From contig JAEUVU010000001.1 of NCBI GenBank assembly GCA_016786725.1, positions 108,760 to 172,759 of the forward strand: a stretch of 64,000 nt of DNA, given 5' to 3'. The position numbers were made by a program, and so were the translations under genes. Each line of letters opens with the position of its first letter. Within the stretch, counting starts at the first letter, position 1. This document shows positions 2,483 through 54,528 of the stretch, piece after piece. The stretch comes from Ferruginibacter sp. Lineage in GTDB: Bacteria; Bacteroidota; Bacteroidia; Chitinophagales; Chitinophagaceae. The notes below the pieces were generated by a model, which worked only from the letters and a program-made list of their open reading frames with translations, was not told the DNA's origin and did not search any database.

Positions 2483-3955
2483 TTAGGATCGTTGTTGTTG
2501 CTGCTGAATGGTTAACACGATAAACTCGGCAGGGCGAACCAGCGCCAGCTTAACCGTAACCAGCAAAACCCCATCAAGAATATCCTGCGGTGTCATGGTG
2601 GCTCCCAGGCCTGTCTGCACATCAAAAGCCTGTTCGGGCGATGCGCCTGCCAATGCGCCCTGTTGCCATAAACTGTTCAGGAAGTTATTCATCATGCTCT
2701 TCATCGTTACCCAGGTTGCTGCAACATTGGGTTCAAAAACGTAGGCACGGCAGGCAAGTTTCAGCGATTGTTCTATCATGATCATGGTTCTGCGTACATT
2801 GATATAACGCCAGTCCTGGCTGTTGCCATCCAGTGTTCTGGCACCCCACACCAGGCAGCCCTGGCCGGGGAAGGGGCGTATTGCATTTACCGATTTACCG
2901 CTGCTTACATCAATATTCATATCCTGTTGCTCTTCGGCTGAAATATTTACTGCCGGAGAAACAGCCATCGAAATAGAAACATTGGCCGGCGCCTTCCAAA
3001 CACCTCTTGTGCCATCAACCAGCGAATAAATGCCGGCGATGGCACAGGAAGGCGGCAGCAGGTTTAACCGGTTTTTTATCTCATTTACCAGTTGCACATA
3101 AGTGTTGCTGCAGGCCATCAGCGCCTGGTGCAGGATGCGGTTTTGAGTGCTGGTGGGGGAGGCAGCTACGGCATTGTTCCAATCGTCAATGGCGGCTGAT
3201 ACGTCTGTTTCGGGCAACATTGTTTTCAGCGCTTCTGTTGATACATCCATATTTGTAAAATCAACTTCATCTGCTGCAACCACCGAAGCGTTAAGCCAGG
3301 GGTAATAGGCGGCGCCATAATTCAATGCTTCGGTACCAATTGCCTCTCTGAATGCTGTTAAAGTAGCATTTGTTGAAGCATCGGCAGCATCCGGTATCAC
3401 ATCAAAAATGCCAAAGCGGCTTTGTGTGTTGGCACAGTGTGCTAATACCTTTTTATACAAATGGTAGCACTGGTCCCTATCGTTCACAAAGTCGGGCAAT
3501 ACCACAAGGGTTGGTTCGGGCGTTTTTTCAAGTGTATCAAATACTGCATCCGAAAGGTCGGCAGGATTGACCTCCGTTATTTTATTTGCTCCTTCACCAT
3601 AAGTGCCTACAGAAAGAATATAGCAACTGCCACCGCCGTTGAGGTAAAACAACCGCATACAGTTATACAGGTAAAATATGGTTGCCGGTTGTATAACCAT
3701 ATCAGGTTGAAACTGATTGATAATTGCCGGTGCATTTTTAATAGCAAAGCGATGATGATAACCATGTCCAAACCATTGCATATATTCTGCAAAGGAGGTT
3801 ATGTAAATTGGTTTACCAATTAACGAAATACCTTTGTGTTCTGCTTTTTGGGTATAACCAATAAAAACGGGTATGGCTGTTGCAACAGCAACGGCTGAAT
3901 TTGGGAATGCATTTTCTTCTTCAATATAAATTCCCGGTGTTTGGTTAGTTGCCAT
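2483..3955 (-). CDS. Contractile tail sheath protein, orphan
   Basis: 490 residues. The N-terminus P-G-I-Y-I-E-E and the C-terminal block Y-I-N-V-R-R-T-M-I-M-I-E-Q-S, F-E-P-N-V-A-A-T-W, F-L-N-S-L-W-Q-Q-G-A-L-A-G-A, then R-P-A-E-F-I-V-L are the standard signature of phage-tail, R-pyocin and extracellular contractile injection system (eCIS) sheath subunits. The length fits the long sheath paralogues of eCIS. Sheath proteins normally sit beside tube, baseplate and AAA+ ATPase genes. None lies within this window: its neighbours are a DUF1801 gene and a free T9SS sorting domain. A complete reading frame and normal codon use argue against decay. Role here is unknown. Confidence 0.9.
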   Translation of the reverse strand: MATNQTPGIYIEEENAFPNSAVAVATAIPVFIGYTQKAEHKGISLIGKPIYITSFAEYMQWFGHGYHHRFAIKNAPAIINQFQPDMVIQPATIFYLYNCMRLFYLNGGGSCYILSVGTYGEGANKITEVNPADLSDAVFDTLEKTPEPTLVVLPDFVNDRDQCYHLYKKVLAHCANTQSRFGIFDVIPDAADASTNATLTAFREAIGTEALNYGAAYYPWLNASVVAADEVDFTNMDVSTEALKTMLPETDVSAAIDDWNNAVAASPTSTQNRILHQALMACSNTYVQLVNEIKNRLNLLPPSCAIAGIYSLVDGTRGVWKAPANVSISMAVSPAVNISAEEQQDMNIDVSSGKSVNAIRPFPGQGCLVWGARTLDGNSQDWRYINVRRTMIMIEQSLKLACRAYVFEPNVAATWVTMKSMMNNFLNSLWQQGALAGASPEQAFDVQTGLGATMTPQDILDGVLLVTVKLALVRPAEFIVLTIQQQQQRS

Positions 3956-50884: not shown

Positions 50885-51553
50885 CTAAAGGCCTATCTGG
50901 AAAAAACCATTTTTAATTGCAAAAATAACCAGGCCTGCAGTGTTGCGGCAGCCGGTTTTTTGCAGCAGGTTATTGCGGTGGCCCTCCACTGTGCGGGGGC
51001 TTAAAAAAAGGCGTTCACCAATCTCGATATTCGACAGCTCCTGGCAAAGCAGCGCCAGTATTTCAGCTTCCCTGCCGGTAATTTCTATAGAGATGTTGTT
51101 GAGGTTTTTAATACCGGCAGCTTTGTATTGCGATGTTTTACGCATGGCTTCCAGCATAGACTGGTTAAAATAAAAGCCATTTTTATAAGTGGCATTGATG
51201 GCTGTAACCAGTTCTTCAATCTCACAGTTTTTGGTAAGATAGCCGCAGGCGCCGGCTTCTATCATCTTGCCGATGAACCTTTCCTGGTTGTAGGTAGAAA
51301 GTACCAGCACTTTTATAGAAGGATATTTTTTTTGCAGTACAGTGTTCAGTTCTACACCGTTCATCTCCGGCATTTCCATATCTATTAAAGCAATATGGGG
51401 TAATGTATCGCCTGCTTCCAGCTGTTCAATAAATACTTTTCCATTCTCAGCTTCAGACATCAATGTAAAACCTTCAACTGATCGTATCAAAGCTGCAAGG
51501 CCGCTCCTGAACAGTTGCTGATCATCAATTAAGGAAATAAGTATCTTATCCAT
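50885..51553 (-). CDS. Response regulator, NarL/LuxR type
   Basis: 222 residues. Receiver domain residues ~1-120 with acidic pair D-D near residue 10, phospho-acceptor Asp 58 in L-I-D-M-E-M-P-E-M-N-G and Lys in Y-L-T-K-N. The C-terminal LuxR-type helix-turn-helix is G-R-E-A-E-I-L-A-L-L-C-Q-E-L-S and L-S-P-R-T-V-E-G-H-R-N-N-L-L. It starts 5 bases after the cognate histidine kinase gene, so it is the output of this three-gene sensory unit. Confidence 0.93.
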   Translation of the reverse strand: MDKILISLIDDQQLFRSGLAALIRSVEGFTLMSEAENGKVFIEQLEAGDTLPHIALIDMEMPEMNGVELNTVLQKKYPSIKVLVLSTYNQERFIGKMIEAGACGYLTKNCEIEELVTAINATYKNGFYFNQSMLEAMRKTSQYKAAGIKNLNNISIEITGREAEILALLCQELSNIEIGERLFLSPRTVEGHRNNLLQKTGCRNTAGLVIFAIKNGFFQIGL

Positions 51554-51558
51554 ATTGC

Positions 51559-52335
51559 TTAAACCATTTTGGCCGGTACTGTTATTTTAATAAAAAACCC
51601 TTTTGCTGCAACAGGCATTTCGCTTGTTGCATTGATCATCCTTAACCTGGCTTCCACATTCTGCATGCCCATGCCGCTTTTTTTATCCCTGCCGGCACTT
51701 AATCCTTTTCCATCATCCTGGTAAGTGATGATGTAGTAGCTGTTTTCTTCAAAGCACTTCACCAGGATATTGGATGCGCCTGCATGTTTAACGGTATTGG
51801 TCAATAGTTCCTGTATGATGCGGTATAAAGCCAGGGAAGTTTGCTCATCAAAGCTATTTATTTTTTCGCCCGGCTCATTTTCAAAATTTACTTTAACCAG
51901 CCCTGCAGCATTAAAATTATCAAACAGTTCGTGCAGTGTATTTTCAAGGCCGAACAGGGCAAGCCCCGGGGGCGATAAACTATGAGAGATGTTGCGTACG
52001 GTTGTGATGATATTATCTATAAGCGGTTTAAATGCCGGTTTATCAGCCGTTGTTTCAACAGCCTGGCTCATGATCATTTTTAAGTTTGACAAGGATGCAC
52101 CTACATCATCATGCAGGTCGCGGCCAATACGTTTCCGTTCATCTTCCTGAGACAGCAATGTTGCATGCAACAACTGTTCGCTATGTTCAAGCTCTGCCTT
52201 TTGCATGGCTGCTTTTTGCTGGTTTATCCGGCGCTGGTAGCGTATAAAAAAGAAAATAAAAGAGGCCGCCAGGATAAAGGTGCCGCAAACTGCAAATACA
52301 ATCAATAAAAAAATATCCTCTGTTAGTTTTTGCAT
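51559..52335 (-). CDS. Sensor histidine kinase, HisKA_3 type
   Basis: 258 residues from the ATG at 52335; this start lies inside the last codons of the upstream membrane-protein gene (13-base overlap), which indicates translational coupling. One membrane segment (I-F-L-L-I-V-F-A-V-C-G-T-F-I-L-A-A-S-F-I) is followed by the dimerisation helix with E-R-K-R-I-G-R-D-L-H-D-D-V-G (His 75) and the ATPase motifs N-T-V-K-H-A and D-D-G-K-G-L. It has no sensing domain of its own, so the upstream six-helix protein may sense for it. The response regulator follows 5 bases later. Confidence 0.92.
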   Translation of the reverse strand: MQKLTEDIFLLIVFAVCGTFILAASFIFFFIRYQRRINQQKAAMQKAELEHSEQLLHATLLSQEDERKRIGRDLHDDVGASLSNLKMIMSQAVETTADKPAFKPLIDNIITTVRNISHSLSPPGLALFGLENTLHELFDNFNAAGLVKVNFENEPGEKINSFDEQTSLALYRIIQELLTNTVKHAGASNILVKCFEENSYYIITYQDDGKGLSAGRDKKSGMGMQNVEARLRMINATSEMPVAAKGFFIKITVPAKMV

Positions 52336-52961
52336 TTTATAAAGCCGATTGAAAAGAATAAATACATTATCACAAACAATGCTGCATGTATATTCCAAAT
52401 GATTAAAAAATTTGTCAATGATACTTTATAGGTAATCAAATTCGAAAAAATGAAAAGAATAAATGAGCCTGAAAAATAAAGGAATATGCCGGCATTAATA
52501 TAAAAGGCCGACAATGTGAGAGGCTTTAACTCTAATGCGGCAATTTTAGCAAAATAATTCAGGGCAAACAGCATACAGATAATACTCTCAGCATATCTTG
52601 TATAACTGCTGTATGTATAAATGCTTTGAAAAAATAAGGCATTTATTATACAAATTACAAGGAATGTAATCTGCAAAAAGTTATACCAACTCTTTTTTTT
52701 ATTTGTATTCAATGTGTACTTGTAAAACAAAATCAGCATTAACCCTTCAACAAGTGTAAATAAGTGAACTAATGGCAGATTATTCAAATGATATACCCTT
52801 GCTATAATAGTTGCTGCTGTATTAATTAATGCGGCTAAAACAAGATAATACCATATTACTTTTATGTTAAAAGGTAAGGCTTTGAATTTTATTAAGCCAA
52901 CTATTATGGGAATAAGGATACATAAAGGAGCAATAATTGAATTAAATGATTTCCAAAACAT
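52323..52961 (-). CDS. Six-helix membrane protein ahead of a histidine kinase
   Basis: 212 residues with about six membrane helices (S-I-I-A-P-L-C-I-L-I-P-I-I-V-G-L, Y-Y-L-V-L-A-A-L-I-N-T-A, L-F-T-L-V-E-G-L-M-L-I-L-F, F-L-V-I-C-I-I-N-A-L-F, F-L-Y-F-S-G-S-F-I-L-F-I-F and F-L-I-I-W-N-I-H-A-A-L-F-V-I-M-Y). No enzymatic motif. Its stop codon overlaps the start of the histidine-kinase gene by 13 bases, a strong sign of a working pair. It is a plausible sensor or modulator of the kinase; that role is inference. Confidence 0.8.
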   Translation of the reverse strand: MFWKSFNSIIAPLCILIPIIVGLIKFKALPFNIKVIWYYLVLAALINTAATIIARVYHLNNLPLVHLFTLVEGLMLILFYKYTLNTNKKKSWYNFLQITFLVICIINALFFQSIYTYSSYTRYAESIICMLFALNYFAKIAALELKPLTLSAFYINAGIFLYFSGSFILFIFSNLITYKVSLTNFLIIWNIHAALFVIMYLFFSIGFIKCKN

Positions 52962-53015
52962 AGTGCTTACTTATGCTGTTGCAATATTAAACTAAATACA
53001 GCTTTCCGTAAAAAT

Positions 53016-53047
53016 AAAAAAGCAGTTCATAATTGAACTGCTTTTTT
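53016..53047 (-). terminator. Intrinsic terminator after the 53069-54016 gene
   Basis: AAAAAAGCAGTTCA (53016-53029) pairs with TGAACTGCTTTTTT (53034-53047) around TAAT. On the minus strand the stem ends 22 bases after the stop at 53069 and has a U-tract. Confidence 0.85.
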
Positions 53048-53068
53048 ATTTAGTTTTAAAATGAAGTA

Positions 53069-54016
53069 TTAAGAAGAGTATTTATCATTAAGATGAGCAA
53101 ACACTTCGTTATACAATTTCAATACCTGCGGATTATTGCCATCTTCAATTGCTTGTAAGCAAGGTTTTAAATAATTACCGTAAAGGTCTTTGTAAATTTC
53201 TTCTTTGTTCTCATGCTTGTTAATAGCAGAAACTATTACGGGCGAACTGTGGTAATACATTTCTACCAAATGGCCGTTTTCAGTCTGCCACAAATCTTCC
53301 CTAAAAGAACGTAAAATATTTAATTCTGTTTCATCATTATTTTTAAAAAGAGTATCAACGATTTTGGTAGATATACATAAGCCATCACCACCGTCACACA
53401 TTTGTGGACACGGGCTTGTAAAATCCATCCAGATATTTAAATTTTTATTCTCTGCATCAAAAGCTTCCAAAACCGGATGAATCCCTTTACTGAATTCGCC
53501 CTCAGTTGGGGAATATCCTAAATTGAATTGCAGTGTGTCTGTTTCAGGATTATTGATAAATGTATTCAATTTATTAACGCCCCAAAAATCACCCCTATGT
53601 ATGGTTTTGATATTTTGTTCAGGATTTAAAGTATGTTCATGTTTAACATGGTTAAAAAGTATTTTCCAGGTTTCTTCTAACGGAACCTGTACTCCCGTAT
53701 GCAGAAAATACCCATCCTCCTGTATCATAATGTTAGGCAGGTTGCTTTTTGGCGAAGCCATGTTTTCACTGCAAGGCATTAAAACCAAGCAGGTTTCTGG
53801 CTTTGCTAAATCCTGTATTCCATACATAAAACGAATTCCCGTAACACCGTTTTCATTCAATATGTACGAAAGCAATTCTTTTAAAATTTTAAAGGATGAA
53901 ACCTTTTCATGGAAATGATTTTTAAAATTCTGTAATAAAAAATCTTTTTGCCCGCTTGAAATCATTTGCCCTACATCAGCAGGTTTTGTTTGCACTTGGG
54001 AGATGTTTTTTTGCAT
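53069..54016 (-). CDS. Two copies of an uncharacterised domain, one ending DFxxPCPQxCD
   Basis: 315 residues, no signal peptide. Two related segments are visible. Copy 1 (about residues 42-90): S-F-K-I-L-K-E-L-L, G-V-T-G-I-R-F-M-Y-G-I and L-V-L-M-P. Copy 2 (about residues 142-210): F-W-G-V-N-K-L-N-T-F, L-Q-F-N-L-G-Y, V-L-E-A-F-D-A-E-N, then W-M-D-F-T-S-P-C-P-Q-M-C-D with Cys 203 and Cys 207. The neighbouring gene at 54118-54528 encodes one copy with the same ending. The last ~100 residues are helical and charged. Each gene has its own terminator. I do not know a named family; function unknown. Confidence 0.7.
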   Translation of the reverse strand: MQKNISQVQTKPADVGQMISSGQKDFLLQNFKNHFHEKVSSFKILKELLSYILNENGVTGIRFMYGIQDLAKPETCLVLMPCSENMASPKSNLPNIMIQEDGYFLHTGVQVPLEETWKILFNHVKHEHTLNPEQNIKTIHRGDFWGVNKLNTFINNPETDTLQFNLGYSPTEGEFSKGIHPVLEAFDAENKNLNIWMDFTSPCPQMCDGGDGLCISTKIVDTLFKNNDETELNILRSFREDLWQTENGHLVEMYYHSSPVIVSAINKHENKEEIYKDLYGNYLKPCLQAIEDGNNPQVLKLYNEVFAHLNDKYSS

Positions 54017-54062
54017 AATTTTTAATTTAGATTTTGAGAAGATATCGTAATATGCAAAAAAA

Positions 54063-54095
54063 AACGAATAAATAAAATGTATTTATTTATTCGTT
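54063..54095 (-). terminator. Intrinsic terminator after the 54118-54528 gene
   Basis: AACGAATAAATAAA (54063-54076) pairs with TTTATTTATTCGTT (54082-54095) around a 5-base loop, with an A-run at 54056-54062 giving a U-tract on the minus strand. It lies 22 bases after the stop at 54118. Confidence 0.8.
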
Positions 54096-54117
54096 CCGCA
54101 AACTCATTTTAATCGAA

Positions 54118-54528
54118 TTAGTCCTCAAATAAAGGGCTGTCAATATCGCAAAGCTGAGGGCAGGGTGTTGAAAAATCATAAATACTGCTCTGCTCCACAA
54201 AGCCCCCTGAGCCATCAGGTACTTCGGTGCTTAAAACATCCAGGTTATTTGCATCAACCGGTACCAGCACCAGCTTTAAGGTTGATACATCTGTACTGTT
54301 GGCCATACCCAGGTAAGCCCTTACTGAAGTGCATTTGGTAAAATCGGCCAGCGATGCAATATCTTCCATCGGGATATTAAAGGCCCTGATATAGTTAGGA
54401 TCAGGATCAATACCTGAAATATAAGTACGCCAGTTGGCTGTGTAGCCTGTTCCTACCGATTCAGGAATGCCTGGACTTGGTACATTGTCTGTTAAGGTGG
54501 TTTCACCGGAAATTGTTTGGTTGTTCAT
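54118..54528 (-). CDS. Single-copy DFxxPCPQxCD-domain protein
   Basis: 136 residues, no signal peptide, acidic. After a Thr/Pro-rich start it has F-N-I-P-M-E-D-I-A-S-L, C-T-S-V-R-A-Y-L-G-M, L-K-L-V-L-V-P-V-D-A-N-N and finally Y-D-F-S-T-P-C-P-Q-L-C-D with Cys 123 and Cys 127 near the C-terminus. The same motif order occurs in the larger neighbour. The C-x-x-x-C could bind metal, form a disulfide or be a modification site; this is inference. The family resembles small uncharacterised Bacteroidota proteins with 'R-x-Y-x-G ... L-V-L-V-x-x-D ... P-C-P-x-x-C'. Confidence 0.75.
   Translation of the reverse strand: MNNQTISGETTLTDNVPSPGIPESVGTGYTANWRTYISGIDPDPNYIRAFNIPMEDIASLADFTKCTSVRAYLGMANSTDVSTLKLVLVPVDANNLDVLSTEVPDGSGGFVEQSSIYDFSTPCPQLCDIDSPLFED

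Follow-up and report, generated by a model that had tools for sequence, protein, structure and literature searches.

A PCP-tail protein of Ferruginibacter as a candidate input subunit of a recurrent membrane protein, kinase and regulator cassette in Bacteroidota

Genes and features of the locus

The window, by which is meant the whole 64,000-nucleotide stretch of Ferruginibacter sp. DNA that was analysed, carries on its minus strand a gene cassette that opens with an open reading frame (ORF) for a 136-aa PCP-tail protein (54118..54528), whose conserved C-terminal tail reads DFSTPCPQLCD (residues 118-128; 54145..54177). A second ORF, for a 315-aa protein (53069..54016, minus strand), sits between the gene for the 136-aa protein and that for a membrane protein, and profiles divide its product into three parts. 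The first is a PCP-like domain lacking the Cys motif (approximately residues 14-103; 53708..53977), the second is a PCP domain detected by profile match and hhalign (approximately residues 113-213; 53378..53680) that contains DFTSPCPQMCD (53393-53425), and the third is a helical end with a CFI-box-like region (residues 223-279; 53180..53350) that matches NCBIfam NF041770 below its cut-off. A first-pass annotation of this DNA had described both ORFs with these motifs, had noted that the first half of the 315-aa protein is without DFxxPCPxxCD and had seen no export signal in either protein, all of which was borne out, the last by a crude export-signal test that flags neither.

The membrane protein encoded downstream (52323..52961, minus strand) has 212 aa, and hydropathy, conservation and loop charges predict seven TM helices in an N-out/C-in arrangement. 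Its gene is overlapped by 13 bases by that of a histidine kinase (51559..52335, minus strand), which matches HisKA_3 at 36.2 bits (cut-off 24) and HATPase_c at 30.6 bits (cut-off 26.4) in Pfam, and this is followed by a gene for a NarL/LuxR-type response regulator (50885..51553, minus strand; Response_reg 80.5 bits, GerE 51.7 bits in Pfam). By Pfam, the kinase and the regulator are a standard two-component system, with HisKA_3/HATPase_c in the one and a receiver plus a LuxR DNA-binding domain in the other. The kinase has one N-terminal hydrophobic segment as judged by eye and a LapA_dom match below the Pfam cut-off at its N-terminus, and Pfam names no separate sensor domain in it.

Two hairpins are predicted by folding within this run of genes, both on the minus strand. 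Directly 3' of the 136-aa gene lies an AT-rich hairpin with a T run (54056..54095; 78-base stretch, -17.4 kcal/mol, z -3.6), which is a possible attenuator or terminator, while a strong hairpin with a T run 3' of the 315-aa gene (53010..53051; 64-base stretch, -20.7 kcal/mol, z -7.9) is likely a terminator ahead of the membrane-protein gene; both were called by folding alone, and a simple consensus terminator scan lists neither. Because the strong hairpin stands between the 315-aa gene and that for the membrane protein, the window cassette may not be one transcript. The gap from the 136-aa gene to the membrane-protein gene is 1160 bp in all, with the 315-aa gene in between, and since the small gene abuts the membrane-protein gene in most other loci, as described below, the window hairpins are probably a local feature.

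The small-protein family and its duplicated domain

Comparison of the 136-aa with the 315-aa protein by BLASTP gives the 11-residue block DF[ST][ST]PCPQ[LM]CD as the sole significant match (E 5e-5). By profile-profile comparison, the family of the 136-aa protein aligns with the 315-aa profile over positions 147-209 (probability 94.5, E 8.3e-8). A whole-genome search with a 60-row family profile (alignment A4), built without the 315-aa protein, picks up its Cys-motif half (E 1.7e-6) as well as its other half (E 2.7e-6). A 45-row profile, from which the rows in the homologue list of the 136-aa protein had been removed and in which a few close relatives (for example from L008 and L010) are still present, scores the second (Cys) half at 27.7 bits and the first at 26.6 bits, against a best score of 8.3 bits among 769 scored shuffles (1000 made). 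AlphaFold2 predicts one order of the first six elements (helix, strand, helix and then three strands) for the 136-aa protein as well as for each half of the 315-aa protein, with two extra short strands after them in the 136-aa model (pLDDT 82.7); the five models of the 315-aa protein have pLDDT values of 78 (78.3), 62, 57, 49 and 41, one of them being confident. The duplicated, unnamed domain proposed in the first-pass annotation therefore stands, in that both halves match the profiles and have the same predicted element order, by which the models were compared, while the signalling-operon context and the CFI-box-like last third of the 315-aa protein had escaped that annotation.

The 315-aa protein, which has four homologues besides itself, is a rare double-domain version of the small protein. 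One of these homologues (P0103) and a homologue of the 136-aa protein (P0100) come from contigs that are both 6293 bases long and of the same source, and the two probably travel together. Double-domain PCP proteins elsewhere in the cassette operon are clear in L123 (34 and 46 bits), and those of L124 (5 and 42 bits) and L125 (12 and 47 bits) have a weak first domain; four further proteins (P0107 to P0110; 249 to 254 aa) have strong family scores and look double by length alone.

In its last third, 57 residues of the 315-aa protein (223-279) match positions 7-65 of the 69 in the NF041770 CFI_box_CTERM profile, with scores of 36.1 bits and, in the genome search, 39.3 bits, both under the cut-off of 40. 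The C-F-I that we take to be the signature of this profile is absent, the 315-aa protein reading L-C-I (LCIST) instead, and in the relatives L005 and L006 the reading is CFV and CFI, respectively. The region would thus be at most a distant relative of CFI_box_CTERM. Apart from this match, the 315-aa protein has a single Pfam match, which is below the cut-off (13.5 bits against 27), and PMC full-text searches, with subscription papers outside their scope, returned no paper on the CFI box. In L005, the CFI-box-like gene with the CFV reading adjoins a gene for a protein resembling a glycine-rich-domain protein, presumably GRDP-like (75-638 and 672-1295).

A search with the 136-aa protein finds 101 proteins at E<=0.01, itself included, with named relatives in Ferruginibacter, Taibaiella, Psychroserpens, Chryseobacterium and Hymenobacter, and with profiles the family is found in 36 of 298 genomes at the level of the order and in 51 of 395 genomes sampled across the phylum. 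The 136-aa protein has no match over the cut-off in Pfam, NCBIfam, PHROGs or PADLOC, the lack of a PHROG match giving no sign of a phage or mobile origin, and among its listed relatives (the best 120 of 176) any name given by the source is hypothetical protein. Two weak NCBIfam matches in the family were read as chance and set aside, one in L086 to a toxin B-subunit model (about 16 bits against a cut-off near 200) and one in L125 that is far below the cut-off and covers the first 37 residues only (17.9 bits).

The family as counted here comprises 117 genes at 112 loci, which were collected by their similarity to the small protein and to no other cassette member, with the 315-aa gene included and the near-duplicate loci L017, L020, L052 and L053 dropped beforehand. 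The most conserved positions in the 60-row alignment are R70, Y72, V89, D97, C123, P124 and C127, of which C123, P124 and C127 are invariant in these rows, the alignment leaving out L083 (which has no Cys pair), partial rows and near-duplicates. The first-pass annotation had named loss of the Cys pair from most homologues as the outcome that would speak against its reading, and such a loss was not found, C-P-x-x-C being present in 95 of the 117 family genes. Among the remaining 22, one has another CxxxC and 21 have none, including one cut by a contig end. Twelve of these 21 retain a P-x-P-P tail, such as PCPPYGDPNSPL or PSPPY, with seven keeping only the first Cys, one reading C-P-P-C and four having neither Cys. 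A single genus-level group (g143), other loci of which keep the Cys pair, accounts for all 12, so that the loss may have been a single evolutionary event, and the membrane-protein partner stays beside the cysteine-poor genes.

A crude test flags an N-terminal hydrophobic stretch in 23 of the 117 small proteins, and with two flags (L012 and L068) that are likely due to wrong starts, about 21 are left with an export signal. A lipobox is seen among the flagged proteins in five cases by a script pattern and in about 11 by eye. The PCP domain is thus predicted to lie outside the cytoplasm in some relatives, while most PCP proteins, those of the window included, are without an export signal.

The recurrent cassette and its membrane protein

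Tabulation of conserved neighbours, a check that the first-pass annotation had suggested, uncovered a cassette that recurs across loci of the phylum in the order PCP-tail protein, membrane protein (predicted 7 TM), HisKA_3 kinase and LuxR-type regulator. Downstream of the 117 small-protein genes (112 loci), a membrane protein is found in 112 cases, a kinase in 108 and a regulator in 102, and the gap between the small gene and the membrane-protein gene has a median of 13 bp and is at most 60 bp in 93 of 112. The five small-protein genes that are not followed by a membrane protein are L007 (contig end), one at a locus with masked letters, the double-domain genes of L124 and L125, which come downstream of the membrane-protein gene in their own operon, and L015, the one true orphan, which has neither membrane protein nor kinase. 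Nine genes are without a kinase, namely three at contig ends (L007, L079, L087), the orphan L015, L162, where the sequence read contains the pair and neither kinase nor regulator, and L078, L147, L154 and L157, where kinases are present and were missed by the cassette model. The small-protein genes nearly never occur without a membrane-protein gene. Tandem pairs of PCP and membrane-protein genes precede a single kinase in L137 and L145. At five loci (L078, L081, L147, L154 and L157), the usual kinase appears by look to be replaced by one of another build, with the PCP-membrane protein pair kept.

The membrane protein has seven helices by hydropathy, and in 34 relatives the mean number of Lys plus Arg residues is 3.3 in loop 1, 3.4 in loop 3 and 2.2 at the C-terminus, compared with 0.9, 0.9 and 0.6 in loops 2, 4 and 6; loop 5, which is predicted to be inside too, is low in these residues (0.7). 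This pattern leads to the prediction that the protein is N-out and C-in. N61 and Y162 are nearly invariant (alignment A5) and E72 is found in 41 of 47 cases, with N61 and E72 lying near the predicted outer face. The window membrane protein has no match over the cut-off in Pfam, NCBIfam or PADLOC, and five of six relatives searched against Pfam fall in no family, the sixth having only an MnhB match below the cut-off. Searches find the protein in 60 of 296 genomes, with five copies in the window genome and a maximum of eight (G124). In the window genome (G000), further paralogues on contigs C18, C10 and C1 (L122, L212, L213, L214) are seen with a kinase and mostly with a regulator, some led by small proteins that have an export-like start and other tails, and some without a recognisable partner.

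Upstream of 92 membrane-protein genes, a subset of all the search matches, there are 48 small proteins recognised by the profile, 35 unrecognised ORFs, five cases with no ORF and four with merely another membrane-protein gene, and a kinase follows 77 of the 92. That the membrane protein is also found without a recognisable partner suggests that it can probably work alone. Among 81 upstream ORFs of at least 70 aa, a P-x-P or PP tail is present in 66 and C-P-x-x-C in 25, and the 33 of these that the profile does not recognise include 21 with a proline tail, three with the Cys pair and 19 with a possible export signal. A proline tail is found in 12% of 1689 other ORFs, a control that still holds some cassette genes and so overstates the background; as the upstream ORF set also overlaps the loci gathered by way of the small protein, the contrast is a rough one.

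Divergence was compared across 89 complete cassettes, each holding one PCP gene; the window, having two PCP genes, is not among them. Rank partial correlations of pairwise divergence are 0.22 between the PCP protein and the membrane protein, 0.08 between the PCP protein and the kinase and 0.09 between the PCP protein and the regulator, with values of 0.65 for kinase and regulator and 0.23 for membrane protein and kinase. In 300 resamples, the correlation of the PCP protein with the membrane protein is greater than that with the kinase in 97% and greater than that with the regulator in 98%. PCP divergence thus tracks the membrane protein more than the kinase or the regulator, and the order of the correlations is that expected of a chain running from small protein to membrane protein to kinase to regulator, although adjacency of the genes could be a partial source of the correlation.

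Proposed role and comparison with known systems

The reading that we put forward, and to which we give slightly better than an even chance, is that the 136-aa protein is a dedicated input subunit of a four-gene signalling chain, docking on the membrane protein by its conserved tail. In this chain, the small protein would bind the neighbouring seven-helix protein, with the tail D-F-x-x-P-C-P-x-x-C-D, or its proline-only version, serving as the contact. A stimulus acting on the small protein would relieve or impose a hold on the kinase, which would then set the phosphorylation of the regulator, and the 315-aa protein, with its two domains, would serve this chain as an additional input subunit. 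If this is right, the small protein would be the point at which signals enter a system that our searches did not find described. A testable role would then emerge for a class of hypothetical proteins, and kinases that seem to be sensor-less would gain their missing sensor; PMC full-text searches, with subscription papers outside their scope, found neither a description of the cassette nor a title about it. A more specific version, which we regard as rather improbable, is that the PCP tail enters the outer face of the seven-helix receptor and so switches the one-helix kinase and the LuxR-type regulator, making the cassettes an expanded Bacteroidota family of private ligand-receptor pairs, each PCP-tail protein being the cognate ligand of its neighbouring receptor. 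Should it be true, the phylum would have a home-grown ligand-receptor logic made from families without a name in the libraries scanned, with several paralogous pairs per genome.

A comparable arrangement has been described in Firmicutes for LiaX-LiaF-LiaS-LiaR, where, in the portions of the two reports considered here, a surface protein and a membrane accessory hold the kinase, and LiaX is proposed to sense and to release the hold of the membrane accessory on the kinase (PMC10269926, PMC7191749). The cassette described here differs in that its membrane protein, in the window and in relatives, has no match to LiaF (PF09922) and is instead a predicted seven-helix protein, in that the 136-aa and 315-aa proteins have no Pfam match to the LiaX adhesin domain (PF13349), and in that its small protein ends in a PCPxxC tail and belongs to another phylum. 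The two are alike, as far as those portions go, in having a surface protein, an accessory membrane protein, a kinase without a large sensor domain and a LuxR-type regulator, a type to which we take LiaR to belong. By analogy, the cassette would be best read as working like LiaX-LiaF-LiaS-LiaR while being built from unrelated families. Another likeness is to 7TMR-DISM receptors, in which an N-out seven-helix module feeds a kinase, as is predicted for the membrane protein of the cassette, which differs in being encoded by a separate gene, in having no extracellular domain and in having no Pfam match to PF07695.

Among the alternatives, one that we consider unlikely is that the small protein, or a C-terminal CPxxC peptide derived from it, is a self-made, pheromone-like signal that is released from the cell and recognised by the seven-helix protein, from which it is relayed to the kinase and regulator. 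The agr and comQXPA quorum-sensing systems consist of genes for a small protein, a polytopic membrane protein, a kinase and a response regulator, and the cassette has the same four kinds of gene in the order small protein, polytopic protein, kinase and regulator. A subset of the small proteins are predicted lipoproteins or Sec-exported proteins, the conserved N61 and E72 of the membrane protein are near its predicted outer face, and the hairpin 3' of the 136-aa gene could favour an excess of the 136-aa protein. However, pheromone cores usually diversify, whereas few parts of this family are as conserved as the tail; a folded domain of more than 100 aa is predicted for the body of the small protein, and most members are without an export signal. 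The cassette also departs from agr and comQXPA in that its kinase has one hydrophobic segment and in that neither the membrane protein nor its relatives have an AgrB- or ComQ-family match in Pfam.

Equally doubtful, in our estimation, is a redox or metal sensor, in which the C-P-x-x-C pair would bind metal or toggle a disulfide and thereby switch the chain. The pair is common to 95 of the 117 genes, and the 12 genes that lack it while keeping the proline tail belong to one genus, eight of them with at least one Cys; this confinement of the cysteine-poor tails of recognised members to one genus also tells slightly against the input-subunit reading. The same C-P-x-x-C spacing occurs in synthetic peptides, for which the part of the report considered here describes a tendency of CPXXC motifs to form antiparallel inter-motif disulfides (PMC12509089), and this tendency, although that of designed peptides, keeps a putative redox role alive, above all for exported members. 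Against it, four of the 12 genes have no tail Cys at all and their cassette is intact, upstream partners outside the profile have a proline tail in 21 of 33 cases and C-P-x-x-C in three, and in members located in the cytosol the pair would normally be in the reduced state. Upstream of the membrane protein, a proline tail occurs more often than the Cys pair (66 against 25 of 81), and in g143 it is kept where the pair is broken, which leans towards recognition rather than thiol chemistry. The suggestion in the first-pass annotation that the Cys pair serves metal binding, disulfide formation or modification appears, on this comparison of tails, somewhat weakened.

Least probable is that the small protein stands at the output end, perhaps as an envelope or surface component produced under the control of the cassette beside its own regulator, since, even though a regulator often has its targets among adjacent genes and tail-collar genes lie nearby in 14 of the 112 loci, small-protein divergence follows the membrane protein and not the regulator, and PCP-membrane protein pairs duplicate together upstream of one kinase.

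The tail-collar genes (PF07484-like, MdpB-type) are divergent and upstream in 13 of these 14 loci (L013, L016, L018, L056, L057, L059, L061, L124, L125, L131, L136, L141 and L155) and downstream in the other (L127). Among 20 separately fetched collar clusters, taken from a longer list with 19 picked for having no known cassette and one for a membrane-protein match, three adjoin a cassette (L273, L281 and L291), and the collar cluster of the window genome itself (L272) is not beside one. With these counts of 14 of 112 loci and three of 20 clusters, and none at the window genome's own cluster, the collar genes were rejected as a general target of the cassette and are kept as candidates for some lineages only. 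Apart from the cassette and collar families, the first 52 loci show no striking recurrent neighbour, one large cluster of neighbours (13 loci) being a mixture of long secreted proteins and the rest occurring in three loci each. Upstream of the cassette in L010 (5118-6569) there is a clostripain-family gene (Peptidase_C11, 39.8 bits), near a second LuxR-type regulator. About 50 kb away from the cassette in the window, the minus-strand gene at 2483-3955 encodes a 490-aa protein, which we take to resemble a contractile tail sheath subunit.
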